Below, piece after piece: positions 13,287-49,737 of a stretch of 64,000 bases of DNA. The stretch is from Plasmodium relictum. Its lineage: Eukaryota; Apicomplexa; Aconoidasida; Haemosporida; Plasmodiidae. Every line of letters begins with the position of its first letter. Positions within the stretch are counted from its first letter, which is position 1. Location of the stretch: assembly GCF_900005765.1 (NCBI RefSeq), contig NC_041685.1:62001-126000 (forward strand), given 5' to 3'. The position numbers were made by a program, and so were the translations under genes. The notes under the pieces were generated by a model that worked only from the letters and a program-made list of their open reading frames with translations, was not told where the DNA came from and made no database searches.

Positions 13287-16200
13287 ATGAATAATTTTTT
13301 TTTTTCAATAGTATCTATATTATTTTTGTTATACTTATGTAAAGGAAATTTCAATGATTATTCATCTAATAAAATATTTTTAAAATATAAAAGTAAGTAT
13401 TGTCTATATCCTGAAAATGTTATTGAAAATAACAAATTTGAAATAGGTTCGGATGAATGTGATAAAATAGCGCATGAAAATGAGGTAAATTAAGAAAGAA
13501 ATATAATAATTCAAAAATTTTTCGCACTAATATGAAATAGTAAAATATAAAATTTTCTGCTTTAAGTGTAATAACTATAAAATTGATTATGCGCTCTTTG
13601 CAAAATTTTACATAATATTCAAATTAAATTTATACTTCTAAATTTTATACATAAAATAATTGAAAACATAAAAAGAGAAAACATTACAAATGTGCAATTT
13701 ACACCTTATGAATAATTATATCATTGCTTTAATATGTTTTATTTACCTACTGTTATATGCATTTTCTTTTATTTTATAATTAAAAAAATACATATCAAAA
13801 TAATTGTAAAAACTAGGATACTTTAAAATTGGATTGCAAAATATATTACAATTCTTAAAATAGAAAATATTATTTTTAGTGTTGTATTCTAAGAAAAATT
13901 CTCTTTTTTTTATATGAGATATATGTAGATATACTTAATGTTATATATAATTTTTTTTCATACATTCTTTTTGTCATTTTTTTTTTTGTATATAAAATGC
14001 ATACGAATATATATATTCTTATTCCTCACATTTTTTTTTCGTTTTATTTTTTAAGAGCAAAATGGTTTGGTTATCTTTTAATAATGGAAGATTAAAAACA
14101 CAAAATGGAATGTGCTTAAAAACTTATAAAAACTTTTTAATAATTTCTATATGTGCCCCTGATCAAAATGAAAAGTCTGAAATGTGGAAAATTGACGAAG
14201 AAAAACATTTAAAAAATGAAAACAATAATTGCGCACAAATGGCTGGGGGGAAATTGTTTTCTTTTACATGCAATAAATTATCTACTAAAGAATTTGAAAT
14301 GAAAGCCTATACTATAGAAGAAATGAATTTAATGAAAACAAGATATTCTCAAAAGAAATTAGAGAATGTGAATGCAAAATATTTAGAAAATTTGCACAAT
14401 AAATCTAGTATTTTAATAAGTAGTTATAATGAATTAGAAAAAGAGATAGAAATAATCTTAAAAGTAGAGGAAGAAATGAAAAAAGAAAAGGAAAAGGTGA
14501 GTAATTTAATGAATGATATAAAATTATTAATAAATACATCTTCCTCATTAAATGATTATGGTACAGGTGCTTTAATGAAAGTATATGATAGTATTGATAT
14601 AAAAAAGAAAAAAAGTTTATTAAGAGTTCCTTTAGAAAAGTTAGAAATAAATGAAGAAACATTGAATGAATTAGGTGTAGAAAGTGGAGAGATAAAAATT
14701 ATAATTCAAAGTTTCCTTAACATACCAGATGATAATTATTATACTTTTACTACAAGAAATTTAAAGGGAAACTTAATTATAAAATTAGATAATGAAGAAA
14801 TTATTTCTAATATTGACACACAAATCGATACAAGTATAACGAGTACATTTGTTTATTTACCCAAAAATAAATTGGTACCATTATATATTGAAATATCATC
14901 AAAAGAAGAAAAACCTTCATTTACTTTATTTTGGAGTAGTAAACTTTTTCCTGAAGAAGTAATATCCTCTTTATATTTGTATACAACAATATATGAAAAA
15001 GTTTGTTATACACAAATTCAAAAAAAAATAGATTGCTTATCAACTTTTGAAAATATTACTAAAAAAAATCAGGAATTCCAATTTTTATGTCCTTCTGAAT
15101 GCTTGGCAAAAGAAAATTACACTGTATTTAAAAAAAATAACTCTTGTTATGATATGAAATCTAGTATGTGTGCATCAGCAATAGAATCTAATTTTCTTCT
15201 CATTGATAGTGGAGGCATTATAAAGGTAATGGTAAAAAGTGTTAAAAATAATGAAGGAAATTACAAAGAATGTGGCATAATATTACCAACGAATATGAAT
15301 GATAATACCTTTAAAGGAATAACTGATATTAAATTAGTTGATACAGATGATTTTTTTATTAATTATGAAAGCAACAAGGAATTGTACCAAGGATATAGAG
15401 GAATAGTCACTGACGATAAACATGCATTATTAACAAAAACAGATTTATCTAAAAGATATATTTCTGATATAGATATAAATTGTAACAATAATTTAAAAGA
15501 AAATTATGAATTTAGTGCGGGATCCTTTATAGTAACAAGAATAAAATCATCCAATTCAATGAGTAATGAAAAATCTATTGTTATAGATGCTTTTGCACTC
15601 TTTGATAAGTACAAAAACGAAAATATTTCTATTAATTTATCTGAATGGACAAGAAAAACTTGTAATAATATTCAATTATATATTAAATATGGAAAACCAA
15701 ATGAAGTTATGGAATATCCATCTATGCTATTAACATGTGATGATACATTTGAAAGCATCCATTTTGATAATGTAGAGGTAATAAATGCACGATGTTTGCC
15801 GTTTTGTCTTAATGATAACGCAGTATTTGGTTCTTATATATATGCTCCAAATTCATCAATATGTAAATCTGCTATTCACTCTGGCATCATAACAAATAAT
15901 GGTGGCTTAATTGCGATAAGAAAACTAAGAAATATTACACAGTCATTCAATAATACAGCTACCATAACAAGAAATGGTGTAAAATCAATTATAACTGATA
16001 ACAAAAATAAAGATTCTTACTATATATCAAAACCAAATGGAGTTATTTGTAATTTTCCAAGAACTTATAATGTAAACAAATCACTAAACTTAGAAGATGA
16101 TTTTTTTTCCTTCATTCAAATAAATTCAAATTTATTTGAAAATCCTCCTGTTGTTTTAGTACCCGAAAAACATGCTGTTTTACAAAACCAATTATATAAT

Positions 16201-17925
16201 ATGCATAATGTATATAACACAAAAAGTTATAAAGAAAATTTTTTTTCAGTTGAAAAAAAAGGAGAACAATTAAAGGAAATCATTCCTGATAGTTTTAAAG
16301 ATGAAAACTTATTAGAAGAATTTGATAGATTTCAGCAATCTTACAAGGAGAAAAAGGATCATTTCCAAAAATTAACAAGAAAAACTCAAGGCATTTTTTC
16401 GGATTTATTTACCAAAAAAAGTTCTATAAATAATTTAAATAAAAAATTATCATATATTCGAATAGAACAAAATAATAATGACTCTTTTTTGAAGGTAAAT
16501 GAATCTGCTGTCTTGTCTTTAATTAAGCAATTCGATATCATTACAAAAAAAAAACAATATATTATACAAAGATTAGAAAAATCGTTATTCAACATTAAAC
16601 CAATTACTGTTGAAACATTTCAAGAAAGTTACAATTCAATAAACATAAATGATAATTATATAATTATAGACAGTAATAAAAGTATCAACGGATCGTCTAA
16701 TTGGAAGATAGAAAAATATACAAATGGAAATCTTTTTTCTTCTATAACTAATGATAGTTTCATAAAATCAAATGAAGATTTATATGGTTCTTATTTACTT
16801 TATAGATACACAAAGTTATACAAAGGATTCATTTCGGTAGATGCAAAGATTCCTTATGAAGGAAATGTAGGAATAATATTTAAATATAAAGATTATAATA
16901 ATTATAATAATTTTATAATAAATAGGAAAGAGTTTTATTTTGTTGAAGTGATCGACGGGAAACAAAGCAAAAAAATTAATGAAAAAAAAATAGATGATTC
17001 ATATCAATTGGGTATGTGGACTAAAATATATATTGATTTTGGATATAAATATATTAGGTCGTATTTAAATGGAAAATACGTTAATGGTTATGAAACGAAA
17101 AATGATACAAGTGGACTACTAGGTTTTGGGGTAAATAATTGTAAAGATAAAATATTTATTGATAAAATCATAATAGGTTCCTTGTATCAAGCTAAATATT
17201 ATAAAAATAATATTTTCAATAAAATTATAGGTAAATACAATCAAGAAAAAATATTAGAAAACGAAAATAAAACATCAAAAAAAGTTAAAAATAATATTGA
17301 ACAAAATGAAAAAAAATGCAAAAAATATGAAGAAAAATTTAATGTTCCATTGGACAATAATTGGGTTATCCCTTTCAACTCTTACTGGAAAATTCAAAAT
17401 AACTTTAATTTTAACTATATTTTAAATAATAATAATAATAATAATAATGAAGACAATTACTTATATTCTATACAAAAAAATGAAGGAGATTTAGTTATTC
17501 CATCAATTGTACTTCTTAAAAAACAAAATATATGTGATGAAATGAAATCCTATACATTTCAATCATCCATTAATTTAAAGAAATTATCAAAAGCAGGAAT
17601 AATCTTTAGGGTTTTATCAGCTGATGATTTTTTATCTGTTATATTAGATATTTCAGATTTGTTAGGAGAATTATATTTGATGAAAATCACCAAAGGAATT
17701 CCATATCAATTAGTAGCATCAACACATATACCAGTTAAATATAATTCTTGGTATAATTTAAAAATTGGTTACAATGGATCAAATGTAAATATTACTCTCA
17801 ACGATGAAATGATATTGAACGCAAAATTTAATGAACATTTTGATGATTTAGGAGATGTCGGATTAATAGTTTTAAGAGGTGAATCAAAATTTAAAAATGT
17901 CCTATTTACACCTAATACTTTATAA
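13287..17925 (+). CDS. CCp4: LCCL domain-containing protein CCp4 (LAP family)
   Basis: Two exons, 13287-13484 and 14056-17925, joined in phase 0, giving 1355 residues. Exon 1 encodes a signal peptide (hydrophobic residues 4-17, then CKG), so the protein is secreted. After a lectin-like N-terminal part and a coiled coil (~155-220) comes a PA14-like beta-sandwich at ~232-361, ending in a Leu-Phe-Trp-Ser motif. Two LCCL domains follow, at ~380-465 and ~600-690; each has the characteristic Cys pattern (CPSECL...SMCASAI and RCLPFC...SICKSAI) and then a Gly-Gly-Leu/Ile. A second coiled coil follows, then two ConA/LamG-like sandwiches at ~940-1110 and ~1160-1350. CCp/LAP proteins form a complex in female gametocytes and are needed for oocyst and sporozoite development. 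An eight-Asn tract lies near 17430-17450. The position next to alpha-tubulin 1 matches P. falciparum as I recall it. Confidence 0.93.
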
Positions 17926-29319: not shown

Positions 29320-30250
29320 ATGAATTCAATAAAATTGTTTTTTTTTATTTGTTTAGTGAAAGTTTGCTTAAGCAAATGCAATTCAATATTTTTTAATAAA
29401 AATGTTGATAAATGGACAAAAGAACTTTTAAAAATGCCTAAAAGTGAATATAATAATTTAAATGAGTTAAATGAACTTAATGATAGACAATTTTGTGGAA
29501 AATCACTTAAACATTTAGCAGGGTTAATTTTAGATAAATCAGATAAAGAAGCAAAGTTAATTATTGAAGGATCCATAATATCTAATAAACTAATATTAAA
29601 AATGGGAGATATAAAAGAAAAGGAGATTAATATTAATGATATAATTTTACCAATAGAAACTTTATCAAATAAATGTATTAACATACGACACATGAAGGAG
29701 TTTGATTCTATAATTTTATGTTTAGGTAATAAAGTTATCAGAAATTTTTGGATAAATTCAATAACCGATGCTGTTTTATGTAAAATGACAAAAAATAATG
29801 GAAAACTACCTGAATTTAATTATGAGGAAAAAAAGGAAAATAACAATAACGAAAATGATGAAGAAGAGGAAAACGAAGAAGATAATAAAGGTGAAAATAG
29901 AAACGAAAAAGATGAAAAAAAAAAAAAATACATTAACGAAGAATTTGATGAAGAAGAAGAAAATGAAGAAAAAGGATTAAAATTAAGAATAGCTAAAAGT
30001 AAATTTGGATATCCACAAGTAAAAATTAATGGAAAAAATGTAGAAGATATTAAAAAAGAAGAATTATCAAAAAAATTATCAAAGTATGTCAAAAAACAGA
30101 AAATAAAAGTTTTTATTTAAATATATATATATAAATACTCTATGTAAATAATTATTTTTTTTTAGGTCTCAAAATGAATTAAACAATTTACAGAATGAAG
30201 AATATGAAGAAAGTCCTAATAATGACACAGATATAGACAATACAGAATAA
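29320..30250 (+). CDS. PH domain-containing protein with signal peptide
   Basis: Two exons, 29320-30083 and 30166-30250, joined in phase 2, giving 282 residues. I start at the ATG at 29320, which is the first Met in frame and opens a hydrophobic stretch (LFFFICLVKVCL) typical of a signal peptide. Residues ~60-155 form a pleckstrin-homology fold: a beta strand with LKHLAGLIL, and the hallmark C-terminal helix with Trp (NFWINSITDAVL). A highly acidic Glu/Asn/Lys stretch (~165-225) follows, and then a second conserved block (LRIAKSKFGYPQVKING) that repeats the pattern of a small beta domain. PH domains usually bind phosphoinositides in the cytosol, so the apparent signal sequence is odd. The gene is convergent with the giant membrane-protein gene. 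Confidence 0.8.
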
Positions 30251-30678: not shown

Positions 30679-33600
30679 CTATAATTTAAGAGTATAATAA
30701 AATTCTCTAATTTGCTCATCACTAAAATATTCAAAAATAATTCTAATAAATTTATAATGACCAAAAGGGGAAATATATTCATTATTAGTAGATAAGCAAT
30801 TTCCAATACATGCTATGGGACTAAGACATGCAGGTGACACTCCCACTTTTATTGAGTTTACATAAAAAGTTTGTTCATTGTTAATACATCTTGTTGCGAT
30901 AAAAATATTTTCCTTTATACAATTTTTAAAATTATATCCACAACTATGAAATTTCGGATAATGATCCTTATAATTTTTTTTATAATTTTTTTCGTCTTTT
31001 AAAAAATTTTCATAGGAAATATTTTTTACACTGGAACTTTCTTTTGAATAAAATCCTTCACTTTCATCTTCACTTAAGCTTTTTTCATTTTCACTTGAAA
31101 ATTCTTTTTCATATAAAATGTTATTTTCTAAATTTGTTAAAACTCCTAAAGATAAGTCATAATTATTTATAGCAATATGAGAGTTCCCATTTACTCCCCC
31201 TATTAAACAACGATTAGTTAATTCATTTATAAAAGATAATTTAATTACTGCTAATATAACCCAACTTTCAGGTAGCATTATATAATTGTGTAAATATATA
31301 TTCAAATTATTATACTGTTCTTTTATGCTATTAAAATAGTACATTTTTCTATTTTTCATAGATATAAGGGATAAAGAATAGTAAAAATTCTTACTTTCCT
31401 CAATAGGATAAATGTATACGTTATAATTTTTTGTCACATCAAAATGAACATATTGTATTTTATCAGAATAATTAGATATAGTTGTATCACTCAATGAAGC
31501 TATACTATTATATTCTGGTTGGTCTATTAAATCTTGAAATAAAGAAGAGAAATAAAAATAATAATAATTAAAATTATAATTTGGAGAATTATTATATTCA
31601 TATAATATTTCATTCATTGATAAAGGCTTATATACTACTTTTAAAAAACAAACACAAGGAAAAGGATTAATAAATAAGCTACTATTAAAAATATATTTTA
31701 TATTGTCAAAAGAACAGAACTTATGACATCCCTTAAAATTTCCATTTATAAAATAAAATTGTCCTTTTAATGTTCCAACAACATTTAAATAATACCATCC
31801 CTTTTTCAAATTTTTAATACTATATCCTGAAGAATGATAAAAAGTTTGTCCTTTTTTTTTATAATTTTCTATACATCCGATAATTAAATCATCACTAAAT
31901 ATGCAAGCATGAATATCATTTTCACCACTAATCAAAGATGAAAAAGATATATTTTTGTGTATAGGAAAAAATACCCAAGCACATATAGTATATCCACATG
32001 GATTGGTTAACTCATTATATATTGATAATGTAGGAAATAAAACTAAATTATAAAATTTAGATAAATCACATCCAAAAGCCAAATTATCTGAAAAAACATT
32101 AACACCATAAATTTTAGGCAAATCTTCTTTTTTAATTATTTTTTTAAAATAAATATTATATCCATACTCTTCTTCGTTATCAATTTCAATAATCTTTGAA
32201 TATTCATTTTTATTTTTAGTTGAATTTATATTTTCTTTCTTATTTTCTTCTAAATATTTATTTATTTCAGTAAATCTATTATCATTCTTTTTATTATTAT
32301 TAAATATCTTATTAGGTGAATCATTCCTGTTTTTATATTTGGTAAAAAATTTTAACTGATAAATTTTCAATTTATAATTTGAATCATTTATAAATGGTAT
32401 AACTTTAGTTTTATGTTTTTGAGATTGTACAAAATACATTAAAAAGGCATCTTCTATATATTTATTTTTAATGTCTATTCCTTCTATAATATCATTTTTG
32501 TTTTCCATATTTATATTATCTCCTATCATTTCTTTGCATTTTATCTTTTTGATCAATTTATATCTTCTTTTTATTTCATCTTTATTTAAGAATTCAAAAA
32601 TTTTAAAAGATGAAAAAATTCCTATATTATTATTACCAAAACAAGAATTCCCAAGTATGTTTATCTCAAATTCTTCATCTAGATTTAAAATTTCATGAGA
32701 AATTGTGCTTAAATATTTTCCATTAATATAATAAACTAAACCATTGGATGATTTAGTTAAATTTAACAAATTCCATTTATTTTTTTTTACTATTTTATTA
32801 ATTTTTTCCCATTTTTTTGTTTTTATACTTTCTATATAAAGACTACAGTCCTTTTTTAGCTCTGTTTTCCTTTCTAGATTATATTTAGTATAATAAGTGC
32901 TCAATTTACTCCATTCATTTATGTGTATTTTTATATTCTCAATTTTATCTTTCTTTCTATATATAACAAACAAGGAATTTCCTTTTTTATCACAAAATAT
33001 AAAATTTTTCTTTTTTTTATTGCTACTTCTAGAATTAAAATATATCCATAATTCTATAGTACATTTATCAGGTAATATTACTGATGGATTTATTATGATT
33101 AATGAGTTTTTATTATATAAGTTCATTCCTTTTAAATCCCCAGTAATACCTATATTGCATTTATAACAGTTATGTATAAATACACAAAGTTCATCATTTA
33201 TATTTTGATAATTCATGTAATTATACATATTTTTATTTAGAATTTCCAGATATTTTATGCTTAATAAATCTTCTATATTATCTTTGTTGTTTTTTTTTTT
33301 TTTTCTTCTTTCTTCTTTTTTTTTTTGAGCTAGGTTTAGCAAATTATTTAAAAAAATCCCTTTTATATAAATATATGCACCATAGTTATCTATTTGAAAA
33401 TAATTTATTTTCTCTTCATAATTTTTCATAATATAATTATCTATATATGATTCTCCCAAATTTTCATTTAAAAGAGCAAAGTTTCTTTTTTTCTCTTCTA
33501 TTAATTCTATTTCATCTATATCTAAATATTCACAGTTTTCAATAAAAACTGGCAAAGCGTTGCTAAACACTTTGAAAAACTCTTCCTTCTTTTTTTTATT

Positions 33601-36600
33601 TTCATTTTTTTTTTTTTCTTCTATCTTTCTTACATCATATATTTCTGAAAACTCAATTAATTTATTAATATTTAAATCATCTTCTTCTTTAATTAAATTT
33701 ATGAAATAATTTTTTGAGTCACTATCTAACTTATCATATTCATTGTAAAAATCTACATCTAGCACATTTTTGCTTAAAAAATCATGTATTTTTAAAATTT
33801 TATCATTATCACCTATTTTTTCATCCTTAAAATAGTTTTTATCTATTTTTAATTTGTATTCAGATTCTTTATTGTCTTCTAAGAATTTAAAATATCTTTT
33901 CATATACAAATTATTATTTAAAGAATAATCCCATAAGTTTATTAAATTAGAACATAAATATTTTTCGCATGTGCATTTAAAATAAATATCGAAGTAAATT
34001 TCACTTACATCTAATAATAGGCAATGAAGATAAATTCTACACAATTCTACTGTATATATATAACTAATATCAAACAAATTTCCTTTATTATCTTTTTTTT
34101 CCTTATTATTTAAAAATATTTCACATTCATTATTATAAGTTTTATTATTTTTAAATATTTGAAAATCCATATTGCATTGTTTGTTACTTGAAAAAATCAT
34201 TGAATCATTATTTTGATCCTCTTTTTTTAGTTTGTTAAAATTATTATTTAAATATTTTTTAAAAAAATATAAATCTTTACAATTTTTCTTATTTCCATTA
34301 AATTGCTTAATTTCTATATTATTTTCATCATTTATTAACATTCTTTTGCTCAAATGAATATCAGAATTATTTACGTCACTTATACGAGTAGTATTAAGAT
34401 TACTTAAATCAATTTCCTTAAAATTATTTAAATTACAATATTTATTTTGTTCGTCTATTAAAGGATTCATATTACACCATTTTTTATTCGTATATTCTGA
34501 ACTAATATTATTATTATGTTTATATAAGAAATAATTCTCTATATTTAAATTTTTATCATTATTATTGGCGTATAATTGTTTATTATGTGGAAAAGTTCTG
34601 TTCATATTATTTATATTTAAATTATAGTCTATATATCCGATAGTGTTACTATTAAACGATGTATTGTTAAAATTTATATTTTTAAATTCTGCATTTTTGT
34701 ATTTATCACTCTTATTTGAATTTTCGTTTAAAGAAGGAAAAATGTTTAAATATGTTTCCTTTGTATTATTAAAGTATATACATTTTCTTAAAACATTTGA
34801 AACATATAACAAAATCTTTGATAAATTATAGTTAATATCAGTTAAATTACAGTAATTTAAAATACTGAATCCCCATGCATAAGTGATAAGAGATACATAA
34901 TCCTCGTATATTTTCTTCCTTAACGTATTAAAAAATTTTTCTTTATATTTAAGAAAATTTTTTAAAACTAATGATATATTTTTTATAAGAGCAAAATGAT
35001 TTTTCTTTAACTTTTTTAAACAATTTTCCAAAGTTAATTTATGAAAATTTTTTTCTAATGTTAAATTAATTATAATAGACAAACATTTTTCTGGTTCTTC
35101 TGATAAATCAATAACATTGTATAAAAAAAATACCCATAACTTTGATATTTTTAATAATTTATATCTTTTAATATTATTCTTTTTCTTTTCTACATTTCCT
35201 TTATCAACTAGGCTATAATTCATTAATTTGGAATGATAATTTTGATAAATTTTACTATTTTTCAGAATATTGTTTATCGACTTTATACTTTTCTTTTCTT
35301 TTTTTAATACTATTTGCTCTTCCATTTCATTATTTTTTAACTTTAGTTCTTGCAATTTCTTAGAAGTTTTCTTTTTGAAGACTACTCTTTTTTTCTTTGA
35401 TGTATCCCACTTAATCCATTTTGTCTTTTTTATGCAATCTCTTAATTTATCTATGTTCTTTATCATAAAAATTTTAATATTTTCTTTAAAATAATTTATA
35501 AATAGCAAAAAAATTACAAAATAAATAAAAAAATTAAAAATTATTGAAATAATTGTTATAATGCTAAGAAAATTATATAGATGTACATAACTTAAGAATG
35601 TATAATAAGATAATAATATAGTAATATATGCTAACATAGAAAAATAAAATATGAACTTATCAATTTTTTTTTTTTTTATTAATTTAGTTGCAACTTTTAT
35701 TAATACATTTAAAAGTTTATTATTTTCATTATTATAATCCCCATTATCATTATTTTTTTTTCTATTCTTATATTTCTGATAATTTTCATCATTAATATTA
35801 TCATTGCTATCTTTATGATCTACCACATTTTTATATCTATAATTTTCTTTTGAAATAAATACATTTTCCTTTTGTTCGTTAAGATTAATATTTATTATAT
35901 TTTCATTTAATGATTTGATATTACTTTCTTTGTTTTCAATGCTACTTTTATTTTTTATATAATTTGTATTTTGTTTATACATAGTAATAGAACCTGCATG
36001 ATATAGAATATTATCATCTGCTTGCTCATTTTTTTTTCTTTCTTCTTTTTCATTGAATTCATATACATATAAATACATAATTAAGATATAAAGAAAAAGT
36101 GAAAGAATAATAATTGTTAATTGAAATATATGAATATTAGGATTATATAAGGTATTTTTATAGTTATAAGTTAAAGATGTGTTTGTTGTATTTAAAAAAC
36201 TTCTATAAAATAAGACTAAAAATAACAATAATAAAAAATTATCTATAGGATTGAATGCTTCTATCTTGGAATTTATTACTATTATATCATCTAAAATGTA
36301 CATATTTTTTTTCATATATTTCTTAATTAATGGCAAAAAATAATTTGAAAATTTTATAAATGTGTTATATATGATTATTATGAGGATCTTAAAATAATAT
36401 TTATTTCTCATTTCATAACATTCTAATGAATCATCAATTATTATAAAACTTTCTTGTCTATGTTTATCATAATTACAGAAAAAAAAGAAAATGCATAATC
36501 TTATTATCTCAAAATATAGTAAATCATGATATAATATAAAAAATAAAATAAAATATTTTAGCATATATTTGGTACAAAATGTATCATTTATCATATCATT

Positions 36601-39600
36601 TTTAATTATATTACTATCCATTAAATTGTTTTCTTTAGAATATATTACTGTATTTTCTAGAATATTCCTATTTTCAAGAAAAGGAAAAAATATGTTGTTT
36701 TGTTGTTTATTTAAATTATCCATATTCCTATGATTATTTGTAACATTATTGTTATTATAAAAGATATAATTGTCGTGTACTTTGTGATTTACATATTTTT
36801 CATTTATTTTATTACTACTGTTATTTCCATTTTTTTTTATACTGTTTTTACTATAGATATTATTAATATTTTGATTATTTTTAGCTTTATATGTATTTTC
36901 AAAAATTATTTTCTCCTTATCTTTATTGAATGATTTGATCATATCATTCATTAAAGGCTTATTCTTAGAATATAAATAAAAATTAGCTTTTTTCTGTTGT
37001 TTCTTTTTATTAATTTCTTTTTTTTTTTCATTTTCATTTTTTTTGTTATTTATAAAATATTTTTTAGTGTTTAGTTTATAAGAACCATGCAAATAAGTTT
37101 TTATAAAATTTCTATGAGATTTGAGTATAATATATGTATCTTGATTTTTTTCAATGCACAACTTGTTTGTATTTTTTTTATAAGGTATTTCTAACTTATT
37201 TTTAAGCATTATTTTTCTTAGGAATTTTAAACTATTACTATTTATTTTAATAAATTTATGTTTATTTATTTTCCAAAATATCTTTTTTTTTTTTTTTATC
37301 AATTTTTTAAATTTTTCATGTTTTGTTAAAATTATTTTATTTACGTTATGTTTTTGAAAAACTTCATTAAATTCTGAATTATGCTTAATTAAAAAATGAT
37401 TCCTTAATTTGTCTTCGTTTTTCATATAATTCATGTCCAAGTTTTTTTCAATGTTTCCTGTTGATTTACTAAAACAAATTTTTTTCTTATTTTTTATTTT
37501 TATTTTTTTAATTAATTGATTTTCATCACTTTCTGCCAGATACTTCAAAGTTGATTGATAAAATTCACTATTCACAAATTTATTCTTTCTTAAATTTCCA
37601 TCATTTATTTCATTATCTACCCTTAAACAGGACACTTTTTTGTTATTTCCATAGGTTTCATTATTTATTTTTACTTTTTCTAAAAAGAAACAAAAAAAAA
37701 ATATTTAATATATATATATATATATATAAATAAGAAGTATATAATTTTTTGGAGATAAAAAAAAAAAAAATTATAAAAAAAAAAACGTTATTTTGAATTT
37801 TAAAACAATTAAGTATGAATGATTTTATTTGACTTTTTTTTTTTTTTTTAACTTCTCAAAACATAAATAACAACAGTGCACAATATTGAGAAAAAGGAAA
37901 ACAATACTGGTACAAATAATAAAAAATTAATTTTTTTTAGAATTCTATCACTGTTTGTTCCCTTCTAAAATAAAAAGAATAATATTTTTCGGGTGAACTA
38001 ATCTTATATCATCTTGTCAAAAACAATTTTGTTAATGTTTTTTTATTATACTCTAAAAATTTTTATTCTATTTTTTTTTTCATATTTTACAGTAAAAATG
38101 CAGTCTAAAATTTCATTTAAAGGTATTCCAATAGTAAAAAAATACAAGATATTGACAAAGGAATGATCATAATTTGAATTAACATATCTGATTTTATAAA
38201 GGTAAAAAGAATAAGTAATATAAGAAAAAATATAAATTGTATATAATAATTAAATTTTTTTAGTAAAAAAGTTTTATAACCTAAGAAGTGATATAAATTG
38301 TATATACGTGATAAAAATCTTTATTATATTTAATTCTCTTAAACTATTTACACATATAGCTGTTAAAATACTTATAAATAATGTAATCAGAAAAAAATAA
38401 AATATTACCAAATATGTCAAAAAATTACAAAAAGAGCAAGGATTTTTTAATGGGGCTATGAAGTGATATCTATAATTTTCTTCACACTATATTTTAAATT
38501 AAAAAAAAAGAAAATTTTTTAATTTTTTATATTTTTAATACATAAAATAGCTTAAAAATAATATAAGGTACAAAAATTCAATAAATTATTTTCTAATTTT
38601 CTATTATTTTGTTATCATTATTAATTAATTCTTATTTATTTTTCTATACAATTTTACACTGTATTAAATGATTTCCCTCTAAACAAGATTTATCTTCTCT
38701 GAAATTTAAGCACACATCTTTTTTGTAACATAAAACTTGATAGTAATATATTTCCTTATTTTTAACTTTTTCACATAATTCTTTATATCTTACACTTGTA
38801 TTTTTATGGCACATATTTTGAAATGACCATGTATTCCTATTTCCATAGCAAAATTCTAGTGCATTACATTTTACACATCTGTTATTTTTTATGTCTAATT
38901 TAAAACCTTAGAACAAAAAATAAAATTATTTATTTTTATTCTTTAATTTATATATTTTATTATTTCTTTTATTTTATTTTTATATTATTTTTTTTTTAAA
39001 AACCTTTATTACAAACACAGTCTAGAATAGATTTTGATTCTATTTCATTTGTATCTATACATATATATTTGTAAATAGTGTATGTGGATATTTATTAATT
39101 TCGTATTATTAACTATTTTCATTCTTTTTTTTTTTTTTTGTTAATATTTTTACTAGATCCATTAGGACAATTCTGACAAATAAGAGATCCCTCTTTGTCA
39201 GTATAAGTACCAAGAGGGCAAGGAAAGCATTGTTTGTTTACTCTTGAAAAATTATAAAAACCTATTTTACATTTCTCACATTTGTAGTCCTTTGTTTTAT
39301 TAGTTAAAAAAAAAAATATATGTATATATATAGCTTATAAATTATTTTTATTAGAAAAGTTGTATTATTATTTTTTTTTTTTTATACGTATGTAAGCATT
39401 TCCCCAGCGTTACACTTTAGAAAAAAAAAAAAAAATAGTTTAGAATTGCATTAATATATATTCTGTTATATGAAAAATATTTTTAACTATTCTTAAAGAA
39501 AATGCTTTTTTTTTTTTTTTTTTTAGCTTTTTTCATAATTTTACCATGATGTTCAATATTCTAAAATTTTTTTTCTCATATTTATTATTAAATAAAAGAT

Positions 39601-39673
39601 CTTGATCAATAATTCTTATTATTAAGAGATAGATTAATAACATAAAAAATAGCATTTTATTTGCGTGAAACAT
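30679..39673 (-). CDS. Giant polytopic membrane protein: GCC2/GCC3 ectodomain, ~10 TM segments, three LamG-like domains
   Basis: Nine exons in transcript order: 39545-39673, 39388-39414, 39154-39289, 39004-39054, 38650-38906, 38308-38486, 38091-38187, 37853-37964 and 30679-37679, giving 2662 residues. All phases match. Exon 1 has a hydrophobic signal-like segment (MLFFMLLIYLLIIRI). Exons 2-5 encode a Cys-rich GCC2/GCC3 (ephrin-receptor-like) module: CFPCPLGTYTDKEGSLICQ, then NCPNGS and CVCNKGF. Exons 6-8 each hold a hydrophobic segment. More membrane segments lie at residues ~696-1069 in the large exon. LamG/ConA-like sandwiches lie at ~1857-2019, ~2202-2369 and ~2459-2659, each with a Trp-containing CTIELWIYF- or YTICAWVFF-like strand. 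The splice at exons 8/9 uses a weak GTTAAA donor, so two separate genes remain possible. Function is unknown. The domains suggest a surface or secretory-organelle protein. Confidence 0.75.
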
Positions 39674-47024: not shown

Positions 47025-49737
47025 TAACAACAACAATAATAATAATAATAATAATNNNNNNNNNNNNNNNNNNNNNNNNNNNNNNNNNNNNNNNNNNNNN
47101 NNNNNNNNNNNNNNNNNNNNNNNNNNNNNNNNNNNNNNNNNNNNNNNNNNNNNNNNNNNNNNNNNNNNNNNNNNNNNNNNNNNNNNNNNNNNNNNNNNNN
47201 NNNNNNNNNNNNNNNNNNNNNNNNNNNNNNNNNNNNNNNNNNNNNNNNNNNNNNNNNNNNNNNNNNNNNNNNNNNNNNNNNNNNNNNNNNNNNNNNNNNN
47301 NNNNNNNNNNNNNNNNNNNNNNNNNNNNNNNNNNNNNNNNNNNNNNNNNNNNNNNATAATAGTAATAAGAATAATAATAATAGTAATAAGAATAATAATA
47401 ATAGTAATAAGAATAATAATAATAGTAATAAGAATAATAATAATATTGATAATATTAATATAGAGGAAAGTTATATGAATAATAATGATCATTATAATTG
47501 TTTTATTCATGATAATAATAAATGTAATAATGGCTTTAATACTTCTGAGAATCTAAATAATGATTATAATGTAAAACAAAATAATATGAGTAAAAGTAGT
47601 AATAAAAATATAAATTTAAATGAAAATAATATAAATGATTTTAATAAAATTAATATAAATTATTCAAAAAAGAAGAATTCTATTCATTGTTATTCATCAA
47701 ATGGTAATGATATTTATAAGTCTTGTGAGGAATATTGTGGTGATCAAGGTAAGGTTTCAAGTAATGGATATTTAACTACAACTGAAATTGAATCAAAAAG
47801 TACAACTGAGAACACAGCCAAAAGTTCTTTTGATGAAAAAAATGAAAATAAATCAAGGAATATAGATAAAAATAAAATTTATCATAATATAGAAGAAAAC
47901 ATAGAAAAAGAAAAGATAAAAAAAAATAAAAAAGAAATTGCTTACAATCAAATTAATAATAGGAATTTCATAAAAAATGGAGATTATGAAAATTTTGAGG
48001 TGTCAAGAAATAATAATTTTTCATTTACTAATAATATAATTATAAATAATAAAGATTATAAAGATGATGATCAAAGTAACGAAAAAGAAAGACAGAAAAT
48101 AAGAACTTCATTAAGTAATAAAAATCACGAAAAAGCGCTTGATGAAAACAAAAACAAACTGCTAGTAAATAAAGAAAAACAAAAAAAAAGTAGTAATTTA
48201 AAAAATCTATTAAATAAAGTGGACAGTAATAAAATGACGTCAGTAGTAAATAACAATTTCAACTCTAATAATTTAATTTTAAAAGATGAAAGTAGTAATT
48301 CAAGCAATAGTAGTAACATTAATAGTAGTAGAAGTAATAGTAGCAGCAGTAGTAATAGTAGTAATGATAGTGGTTCTAATCAAACAAATTCTGATTTTAG
48401 TCAGTGTAATAATAAAGAAAACATAAAAAATAAATCTCATAATAATTCTAAAAGAGAAAATGAATTACTTAATAATCTTAACTCTATTACAACAAAAGAA
48501 CACCCTGCTGGTATTATAAATTATTCTACTACATGTTATATTAATGTTGTAATGCAGTGTTTGTCAGTTTTTTTTAAGTTAATTTACACATTACATAATT
48601 ATGTAACAGCCAAGTATAAGAATGTGAATTTTTCAAGTGATGACACTGATCATATGAATTCGTCTTTTATAAATAAAAATTTTTTTACAAATAGTATTCC
48701 TTTTAATTTATTTGGAAATAATAATAAAAAAAAAGATGAACGTTTGTTGTTTACCTTTTCATATAAATTATTTCAACTAAGTAAAATGCATAGTAAAGGA
48801 AAAGTATTGTGTGTCAATAAATTGTTAAATTTATTAAATGATAAATATTCTTATTTATTTGAATATAATGAGCAACAAGATTGTCATGAGTTTCTTCTTT
48901 TAGTGTTCGATTTTATTCATAATATGATGAAAGTAATTGATGATACAGTAGATAATAATAATCAAATAGAATACTATTTAAAAAAAGAGCAGTCTATTAT
49001 ATATGATCTTTTTTTAGGTTTAATAGAAGAAAAAATTACATGTTCTCAATGTGAATATGTTAATTATATATATCAACCAGTTTATAATTTAAGTGTAAAT
49101 ATTTTTAAAAAAAATCCAGAAAATAACTTAAATGATAATTTAGTGGAATATTTTAAAAAAGAAGAAGTTAATTCAACATGCGAAAAATGCAAATGCAAAA
49201 AAATGTTTAAATTTTCATGTGTGTATAAGCAACCAAATATTCTTATTATCCATATGATTCGCTTATTAGAAGATGGATCTAAAATAGATAAAAATATCAA
49301 ATTTGATATAAATAATTTTTCAATTCAAAATATTCTAAAGAAAAAAAATAATCAATATATTGAAAATCCTAAAAAATATAATTTATGCGGTGTAATAGTA
49401 CATAGAGGACTAAATGCAAACTGCGGCCATTATATTTGCTATACTAAGAGAAAGCATACTAATGGAGTTTATATGGTAAATAAAACAACAACAAAAAAAA
49501 AAAAATATATTAATATTATTATTTATATATTCTATTTTATTTTTGATAATTTAATATATAATGACATTTTCAACCAATTTAATATATATTTAATCATTTA
49601 TTCTGTTTTTTTGTATCATTTTTGTTATTTTATTTTATTTTTAGTGGTACAAATTTGATGATAGTACAGTATCTGCTGTTGATGTTGAAGAAGTTGAATC
49701 ATCTAAAGCATATTGTCTTTTTTATCAAAGTCAATAA
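44524..49737 (+). CDS. Ubiquitin-specific protease (USP/UBP, peptidase C19), interrupted by an assembly gap
   Basis: Exon 1 runs from the ATG at 44524 to 49475 across a 300-N gap (47056-47355); exon 2 is 49645-49737. The two sides of the gap lie in different frames, which an arbitrary gap length explains, so I do not treat it as a mutation. The N-terminal ~1300 residues are Asn/Lys/Ser-rich and low-complexity. The catalytic domain starts near 48505. It has the Cys box (Asn-Tyr-Ser-Thr-Thr-Cys, Cys at 48534-48536), QQDCHEF near 48865-48885, CxxC zinc-ribbon pairs (CSQCEYVNY, CEKCKCKK) and the His box (GHYICY, His at 49428-49430). The WYKFDD-type Asp is encoded in exon 2. All catalytic residues are therefore intact. 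It should remove ubiquitin from target proteins, whose identity is unknown. Confidence 0.92.
46839..47441. repeat. Poly-Asn coding repeat flanking an assembly gap, with 21-bp tandem units
   Basis: AAT/AAC codon runs extend from about 46839 to the N gap at 47056. After the gap, 47358-47441 has four identical 21-base units encoding Asn-Ser-Asn-Lys-Asn-Asn-Asn. The array probably continues in the gap, which explains the assembly failure. The real repeat length is unknown. Confidence 0.9.
47056..47355. other. Assembly gap (300 N)
   Basis: Exactly 300 unresolved bases inside the poly-Asn region of the ubiquitin-specific protease gene. The round size suggests an estimated rather than measured gap. 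Confidence 0.99.

Follow-up and report, generated by a model that had tools for sequence, protein, structure and literature searches.

A nine-exon gene of Plasmodium relictum and its predicted multi-membrane product with a Cys-rich, CRMP-resembling ectodomain

On the minus strand of a 64,000-nucleotide stretch of Plasmodium relictum DNA (hereafter the window; contig NC_041685.1) lies a 7-kb open frame, preceded by several short pieces of coding appearance. Is this frame a gene of its own, or the last exon of a longer gene, and what kind of protein would such a gene encode? A reading of the letters alone had proposed that eight small exons, hidden from gene models, join in phase to the 7-kb frame. 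When the nine exons (30679..39673) were rebuilt from the sequence, the joined coding sequence of 8016 nucleotides contained a sole, terminal stop and gave a product of 2671 amino acids. A search covering approximately 5.8 billion proteins found this product to be identical, at 100% identity and 100% coverage, to a deposited P. relictum protein described as "conserved protein, unknown function". The joining of the exons was thus borne out. Their being hidden was not, because the exact full-length protein has already been deposited; the gene is already annotated in P. relictum and the exons themselves are no news. A single gene of nine exons can be taken as almost certain.

All nine exons lie on the minus strand. 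Exon 1 (39545..39673) carries the start codon and a hydrophobic signal-like sequence (residues 1-43) and is followed by a micro-exon of 27 nucleotides, exon 2 (39388..39414, residues 44-52). Exons 3 (39154..39289) and 4 (39004..39054) hold the opening and closing parts of a GCC2/GCC3 (Ephrin_rec_like; PF07699) module. Exon 5 (38650..38906) is Cys-rich and holds part of a Cys module preceding the first predicted membrane segment; the end of that module and segment 1 (residues 226-244) fall in exon 6 (38281..38486). Segments 2 (residues 282-300) and 3 (residues 316-334) are in exons 7 (38091..38187) and 8 (37853..37964), respectively, and exon 9 (30679..37679) comprises a linker, segments 4-9, a long C-terminal tail and the stop. 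The eight introns are all GT-AG, 93-173 nucleotides each, with compatible phases throughout, and the junctions singled out beforehand (37964/38091, 37853/37679 and 38650/38486) are all compatible with the rebuilt model. Continued reading beyond exon 5 runs into a TAG (38646-38644), and beyond exon 8 into a TAA (37850-37848); these apparent stops fall just within introns 5 and 8, as had been proposed. The signal-like start, the Cys-rich module and the three membrane segments of exons 6-8, likewise predicted, are supported by the joined protein, Pfam and hydropathy.

A chance origin of the splice chain was rejected, as the 1039 coding nucleotides of the eight-exon model were equalled in none of 1000 dinucleotide shuffles of the 2018-nucleotide stretch (best 811). 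A splice chain of any kind was obtained in 313 of these 1000 shuffles. In a smaller set (n = 60) none attained the length of the model (best 631). The longest chain that the same program built in the real stretch was 1078 nucleotides, so that the model is close to the longest but is not the longest.

Seventeen haemosporidian proteins were found, including that of P. relictum itself, and the 16 others align with it. No full-length homologue was found outside Haemosporida by this search, which can detect only relatives with short exact words in common. A query with residues 1150-2671 returned the same 17 proteins (7973 candidates sharing most words were scored). An alignment-based search added two proteins, P0018 and P0019, the full-profile matches of both being confined to the GCC2/GCC3 region. 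Median identities to the 16 orthologues were 0.26, 0.89, 0.71, 0.47, 0.57, 0.51, 0.71 and 0.49 for exons 1-8 and 0.46 for exon 9, calculated over the 13-16 of 16 orthologues that cover a given exon by more than half. The signal-like exon 1 is poorly conserved (0.26 in 14 of 16), and two orthologues (P0012 and P0017) have later N-terminal starts.

The public models differ around exon 2. Its peptide motif is present in 14 of the 17 proteins and absent in three, and the exon is found without insertion or loss in 11. Insertions beside it occur in the models of P. fragile, P. coatneyi and P. chabaudi adami (3/17); it is missing from those of P. knowlesi, P. vinckei petteri and P. ovale wallikeri (3/17), the latter two of which begin within exon 3. 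The sequence-only reading had warned that a model lacking the small exons would describe a truncated, signal-less protein. The warning applies to P. vinckei petteri and P. ovale wallikeri, which start in exon 3, and to P. knowlesi, which is without exon 2, but not to P. relictum, for which the full protein is deposited. Public models are not all independent, because those of P. relictum are described as projected from P. gallinaceum and then refined by hand (PMC5880244). Were the variations around the 27-nucleotide exon in 6 of the 17 proteins model errors, tagging and expression work would be misled by them.

The UniRef name of the 2671-residue protein, 'Tyrosine-protein kinase ephrin ...', is the title of a Pfam family; no kinase-domain family is among the seven Pfam families matched at E ≤ 1 in the 17 orthologues.

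Gene PF3D7_0904300 of P. falciparum, whose old name we take to be PFI0210c, is taken here as the syntenic orthologue, being 8.4 kb long and adjoining a PH-domain gene. In a published variant table it is listed as a conserved protein of unknown function at 9:199051-207458, that is as one 8.4-kb gene, next to the 'PH domain-containing' PF3D7_0904200 at 9:197867-198816 (PMC10862847). These two entries fit the earlier argument that P. falciparum gene numbering leaves room for a single gene here. The earlier placement in P. falciparum was right as to locus and wrong as to species, the product being identical to the P. relictum protein. P0015, a P. falciparum protein that matches along most of its length, is probably the product of PF3D7_0904300; the P. 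falciparum model (Tanzania strain) is shorter, at 2442 amino acids versus 2671 in P. relictum. A 2008 co-expression study predicted that PFI0210c acts late in the liver stage, possibly in connection with type II fatty acid synthesis (PMC2215772). No phenotype for PF3D7_0904300/PFI0210c, such as the CRMP-type roles in rhoptry discharge or sporozoite transmission, was found in the literature searched, supplementary files aside.

What the protein might do is best approached from its Cys-rich N-terminal part, which is encoded by exons 2-6. PF07699 scored 48 bits in the joined protein (cut-off 23.1) and 35.6 bits at exon 3 in a six-frame search, above the same cut-off. The best stretch (residues 70-110) spans the exon 3/4 junction at residues 97/98, and two GCC2/GCC3 stretches are present in all. 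The module is matched at E ≤ 1 in all 17 haemosporidian proteins (15/17 by precomputed label). The nine-cysteine domain of family 3 G-protein-coupled receptors (GPCRs) gave a weak match in one of the 17 (E 0.0066).

PF07699 was also above its cut-off at five other places in the same genome (C12, C11, C2, C7:393452-395047 and C10), and a six-frame count over 22,602,028 bases in 514 contigs gave at least 17 matches, including the one in our gene. From their size and domains, and with some help from a weak Kringle match under its cut-off on C7, the genes on C12, C11, C2 and C7 look like CRMP1-4 (CRMP, cysteine repeat modular protein). The ectodomain through the third membrane segment aligned with the CRMP-like proteins on C2 and C7 with hhalign probabilities of 95.1 and 97.4, with the multi-membrane protein on C10 at 97.5 and with an alignment of the four CRMPs at 95.8, rising to 98.6 when C10 was added (the hhalign filter kept 13 of the 17 rows for this Cys and first-membrane portion). 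The Cys module before the membrane scored 34.0 against four CRMPs, P0018 and C10, versus at most 25.5 in 60 control shuffles with the Cys columns kept; without C10 the corresponding values were 28.6 and 23.1. The C10 protein is a 745-residue frame (L013:4450-6684, minus strand) with eight hydrophobic segments, beginning with one at its N-terminus, and is a further multi-membrane Cys-rich gene besides the four CRMP-like ones. Its GCC2/GCC3 match reached 27 bits, above the cut-off, in the six-frame search and 20.9 bits, just under it, in the protein scan.

Nine membrane segments have been published for the CRMPs of Plasmodium and Toxoplasma (PMC9670195, PMC9815656). The C-terminus of TgCRMPa was shown to be cytosolic (PMC9670195), and the Toxoplasma CRMPs take part in rhoptry discharge and have been described as GPCR-like (PMC9670195, PMC9815656). 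The Plasmodium proteins PCRMP1-4 and Toxoplasma CRMPa/CRMPb (PMC9815656) resemble the 2671-residue protein in having a Cys-rich GCC2/GCC3 ectodomain and, probably, a Cys module before the first segment and approximately nine segments. The three CRMPs that were scanned contain five to seven GCC2/GCC3 stretches, compared with two here. The present protein further differs from CRMPs in its very long tail with Laminin-G-like domains, in having no reported DUF7630/7631 and in a membrane core unmatched by sequence. The Babesia bovis GCC2/GCC3 domain proteins BboGDP1-4 are likewise large, multi-membrane and GCC2/GCC3-bearing; they are described as relatives of PCRMP1-4, and the domain table in the accessible part of that article names no Laminin-G (PMC9843837). 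The gene is not mentioned in the accessible text of the CRMP literature searched, supplementary files aside.

The gene structure, the GCC2/GCC3 module and several strongly hydrophobic segments are evident from the sequence itself. Mean hydropathy over the 17 orthologues predicts nine segments within residues 226-1066. Exons 6, 7 and 8 each encode one of them, and exon 9 encodes the other six (segments 4-9; 35497..36543, residues 718-1066, with ortholog means of 1.43-2.64). The hydropathy, profile and shuffle analyses used those rows with enough residues in the given segment. In the P. relictum sequence by itself, a threshold of 1.5 or more omits one of segments 4-9, at residue 772.

Beyond the membrane core, three domains were delimited in the tail. 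Laminin-G-like domain 1 (32515..33174, minus strand, residues ~1841-2060) matches Laminin_G_3 with E 0.0047 at 17.5 bits, below the Pfam cut-off of 27.6, and is hence called only "Laminin-G-like"; the same family is matched at E ≤ 1 in 7 of the 17 orthologues (best 8.7e-5). Domains 2 (31540..32127, residues ~2190-2385) and 3 (30682..31452, residues ~2415-2671), on the same strand, have no Pfam name and align with each other by hhalign (139 columns, 24% identity, probability 87.7). Domain 1 gave no significant alignment to either of them (probability 3.9 and 1.0), and the motifs of domains 2 and 3 suggest that these may also be Laminin-G-like. A PDB sequence search with the tail alignment returned no match at E ≤ 1. 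Structure predictions for the tail (6 of the 17 proteins, P. relictum first) and the membrane core (4 of the 17, P. vivax first) had mean pLDDT (predicted local distance difference test) values of 33.2 and 35.6 and were not used as evidence; two tail fragments and one core fragment had been left out of the underlying alignments. Foldseek gave 126 matches of the tail model in PDB at E ≤ 0.001, the best 50 of which were clostridial neurotoxins, their binding domains and associated proteins. These 50 have TM-scores of 0.30 or less and root-mean-square deviations of 10.5-16.4 Å, indicating a 'beta-sandwich' at most, and nothing was drawn from them.

Taken together, we tentatively favour, at somewhat short of an even chance for the statement as a whole, a CRMP-like surface sensor. 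The one nine-exon gene would encode a 2671-residue protein of the secretory pathway, whose short Cys-rich GCC2/GCC3 ectodomain would lie outside the membrane that approximately nine segments cross. The tail of some 1600 residues, with its three Laminin-G-like (ConA-like) domains, would lie on the opposite side; with an odd number of crossings and the ectodomain outside, that side would be the cytosol. The ectodomain would then sense a partner or ligand, and the tail would relay this or recruit cytosolic partners. The exact crossing number, the topology, the Laminin-G fold of domains 2 and 3 and the sensing role are all things that we infer. The protein may work like a CRMP; we do not claim that it is one.

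A number of observations weigh against this CRMP-like sensor. Likeness in the GCC2/GCC3 part is no proof of kinship to CRMPs, because P0019, which carries sushi, VWA and pentraxin domains, is matched by the Cys profile as well. Single-sequence alignments to the CRMPs on C12 and C11 were weak (18.8 and 1.4). The membrane core gave no hmmsearch match at domain E < 0.2 to the five genome proteins, P0018 or P0019, and hhalign probabilities did not exceed 4.6 in any of the 14 pairings of the two membrane pieces. Hydropathy-preserving shuffles gave a mixed picture, reaching the membrane-core score in 0 of 40 cases with C10 included and in 3 of 40 without it. DUF7631 and DUF7630, the Pfam families for Cys/EGF-like modules of the conserved CRMP core beside the membrane, were not reported by Pfam in the 17 orthologues; both were present in the CRMP-like proteins scanned (those on C11, C2 and C7), DUF7630 lying under its cut-off in one. 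The late liver-stage prediction for PFI0210c (PMC2215772) differs from a CRMP role. Lastly, the segment count is soft: in the ortholog mean, the segment ranked ninth has a score of 1.43, little above the 1.35 of a tail stretch at residue 2466, and the single sequence gives eight segments between 226 and 1066 plus one at 2471. As the two hydropathy counts differ by one, the predicted crossing number, and with it the side of the tail, is provisional.

Laminin-G/ConA-like domains are usually extracellular. A protein with an even number of crossings would place them outside, where it could act as a surface or vacuole adhesin that binds sugars or matrix and does not signal. Such an adhesin we consider possible but on the whole unlikely. 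It draws on the general location of these domains and on a count that comes from hydropathy, is off by one between the two ways of counting and is accompanied by structure models too poor to decide. Against it, the ortholog mean (n = 17) places nine segments in 226-1066, and the later stretches score lower (1.04-1.35) and fall mostly in the Laminin-G-like parts.

An improbable alternative is a channel or transporter in a membrane of the late liver stage, the Cys-rich start serving as an accessory domain; the approximately nine segments and the 2008 prediction (PMC2215772) are in keeping with it, but no transporter family is among the seven Pfam families at E ≤ 1 in the 17 orthologues. Two separate genes, the first coding for a small Cys-rich membrane protein and stopping near 38644 or 37848 and the second, of 7 kb, having a start of its own, are suggested by the in-frame stops just beyond exons 5 and 8 and are nonetheless scarcely credible given the identical full-length deposited protein, the long annotated orthologues in other species, the single 8.4-kb P. 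falciparum gene in the variant table (PMC10862847) and the 0 of 1000 shuffles as long as the model.

Elsewhere in the window, a signal peptidase subunit (SPC22) is encoded upstream of the gene for the 2671-residue protein and was confirmed by Pfam. The neighbour at 29320-30117 labelled as a PH protein has no Pfam family at E ≤ 0.01; its P. falciparum counterpart is annotated as PH domain-containing (PMC10862847). An LCCL-domain protein with two LCCL stretches is found at 14062-17925. Positions 47056-47355 consist of 300 N within the poly-Asn part of a long open frame, i.e. unread sequence and probably an assembly gap; by synteny with the variant table this frame is ubiquitin-protease-like (PMC10862847).

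A more far-reaching proposal would make this protein a haemosporidian-only nine-segment sensor of the CRMP kind beyond the four named PCRMPs, with the cytosolic Laminin-G-like tail as its output and with action in the liver stage; we regard this as rather unlikely in its entirety. More simply, the CRMP-resembling ectodomain makes this conserved, uncharacterised membrane protein a candidate for a comparable sensing function in malaria parasites.

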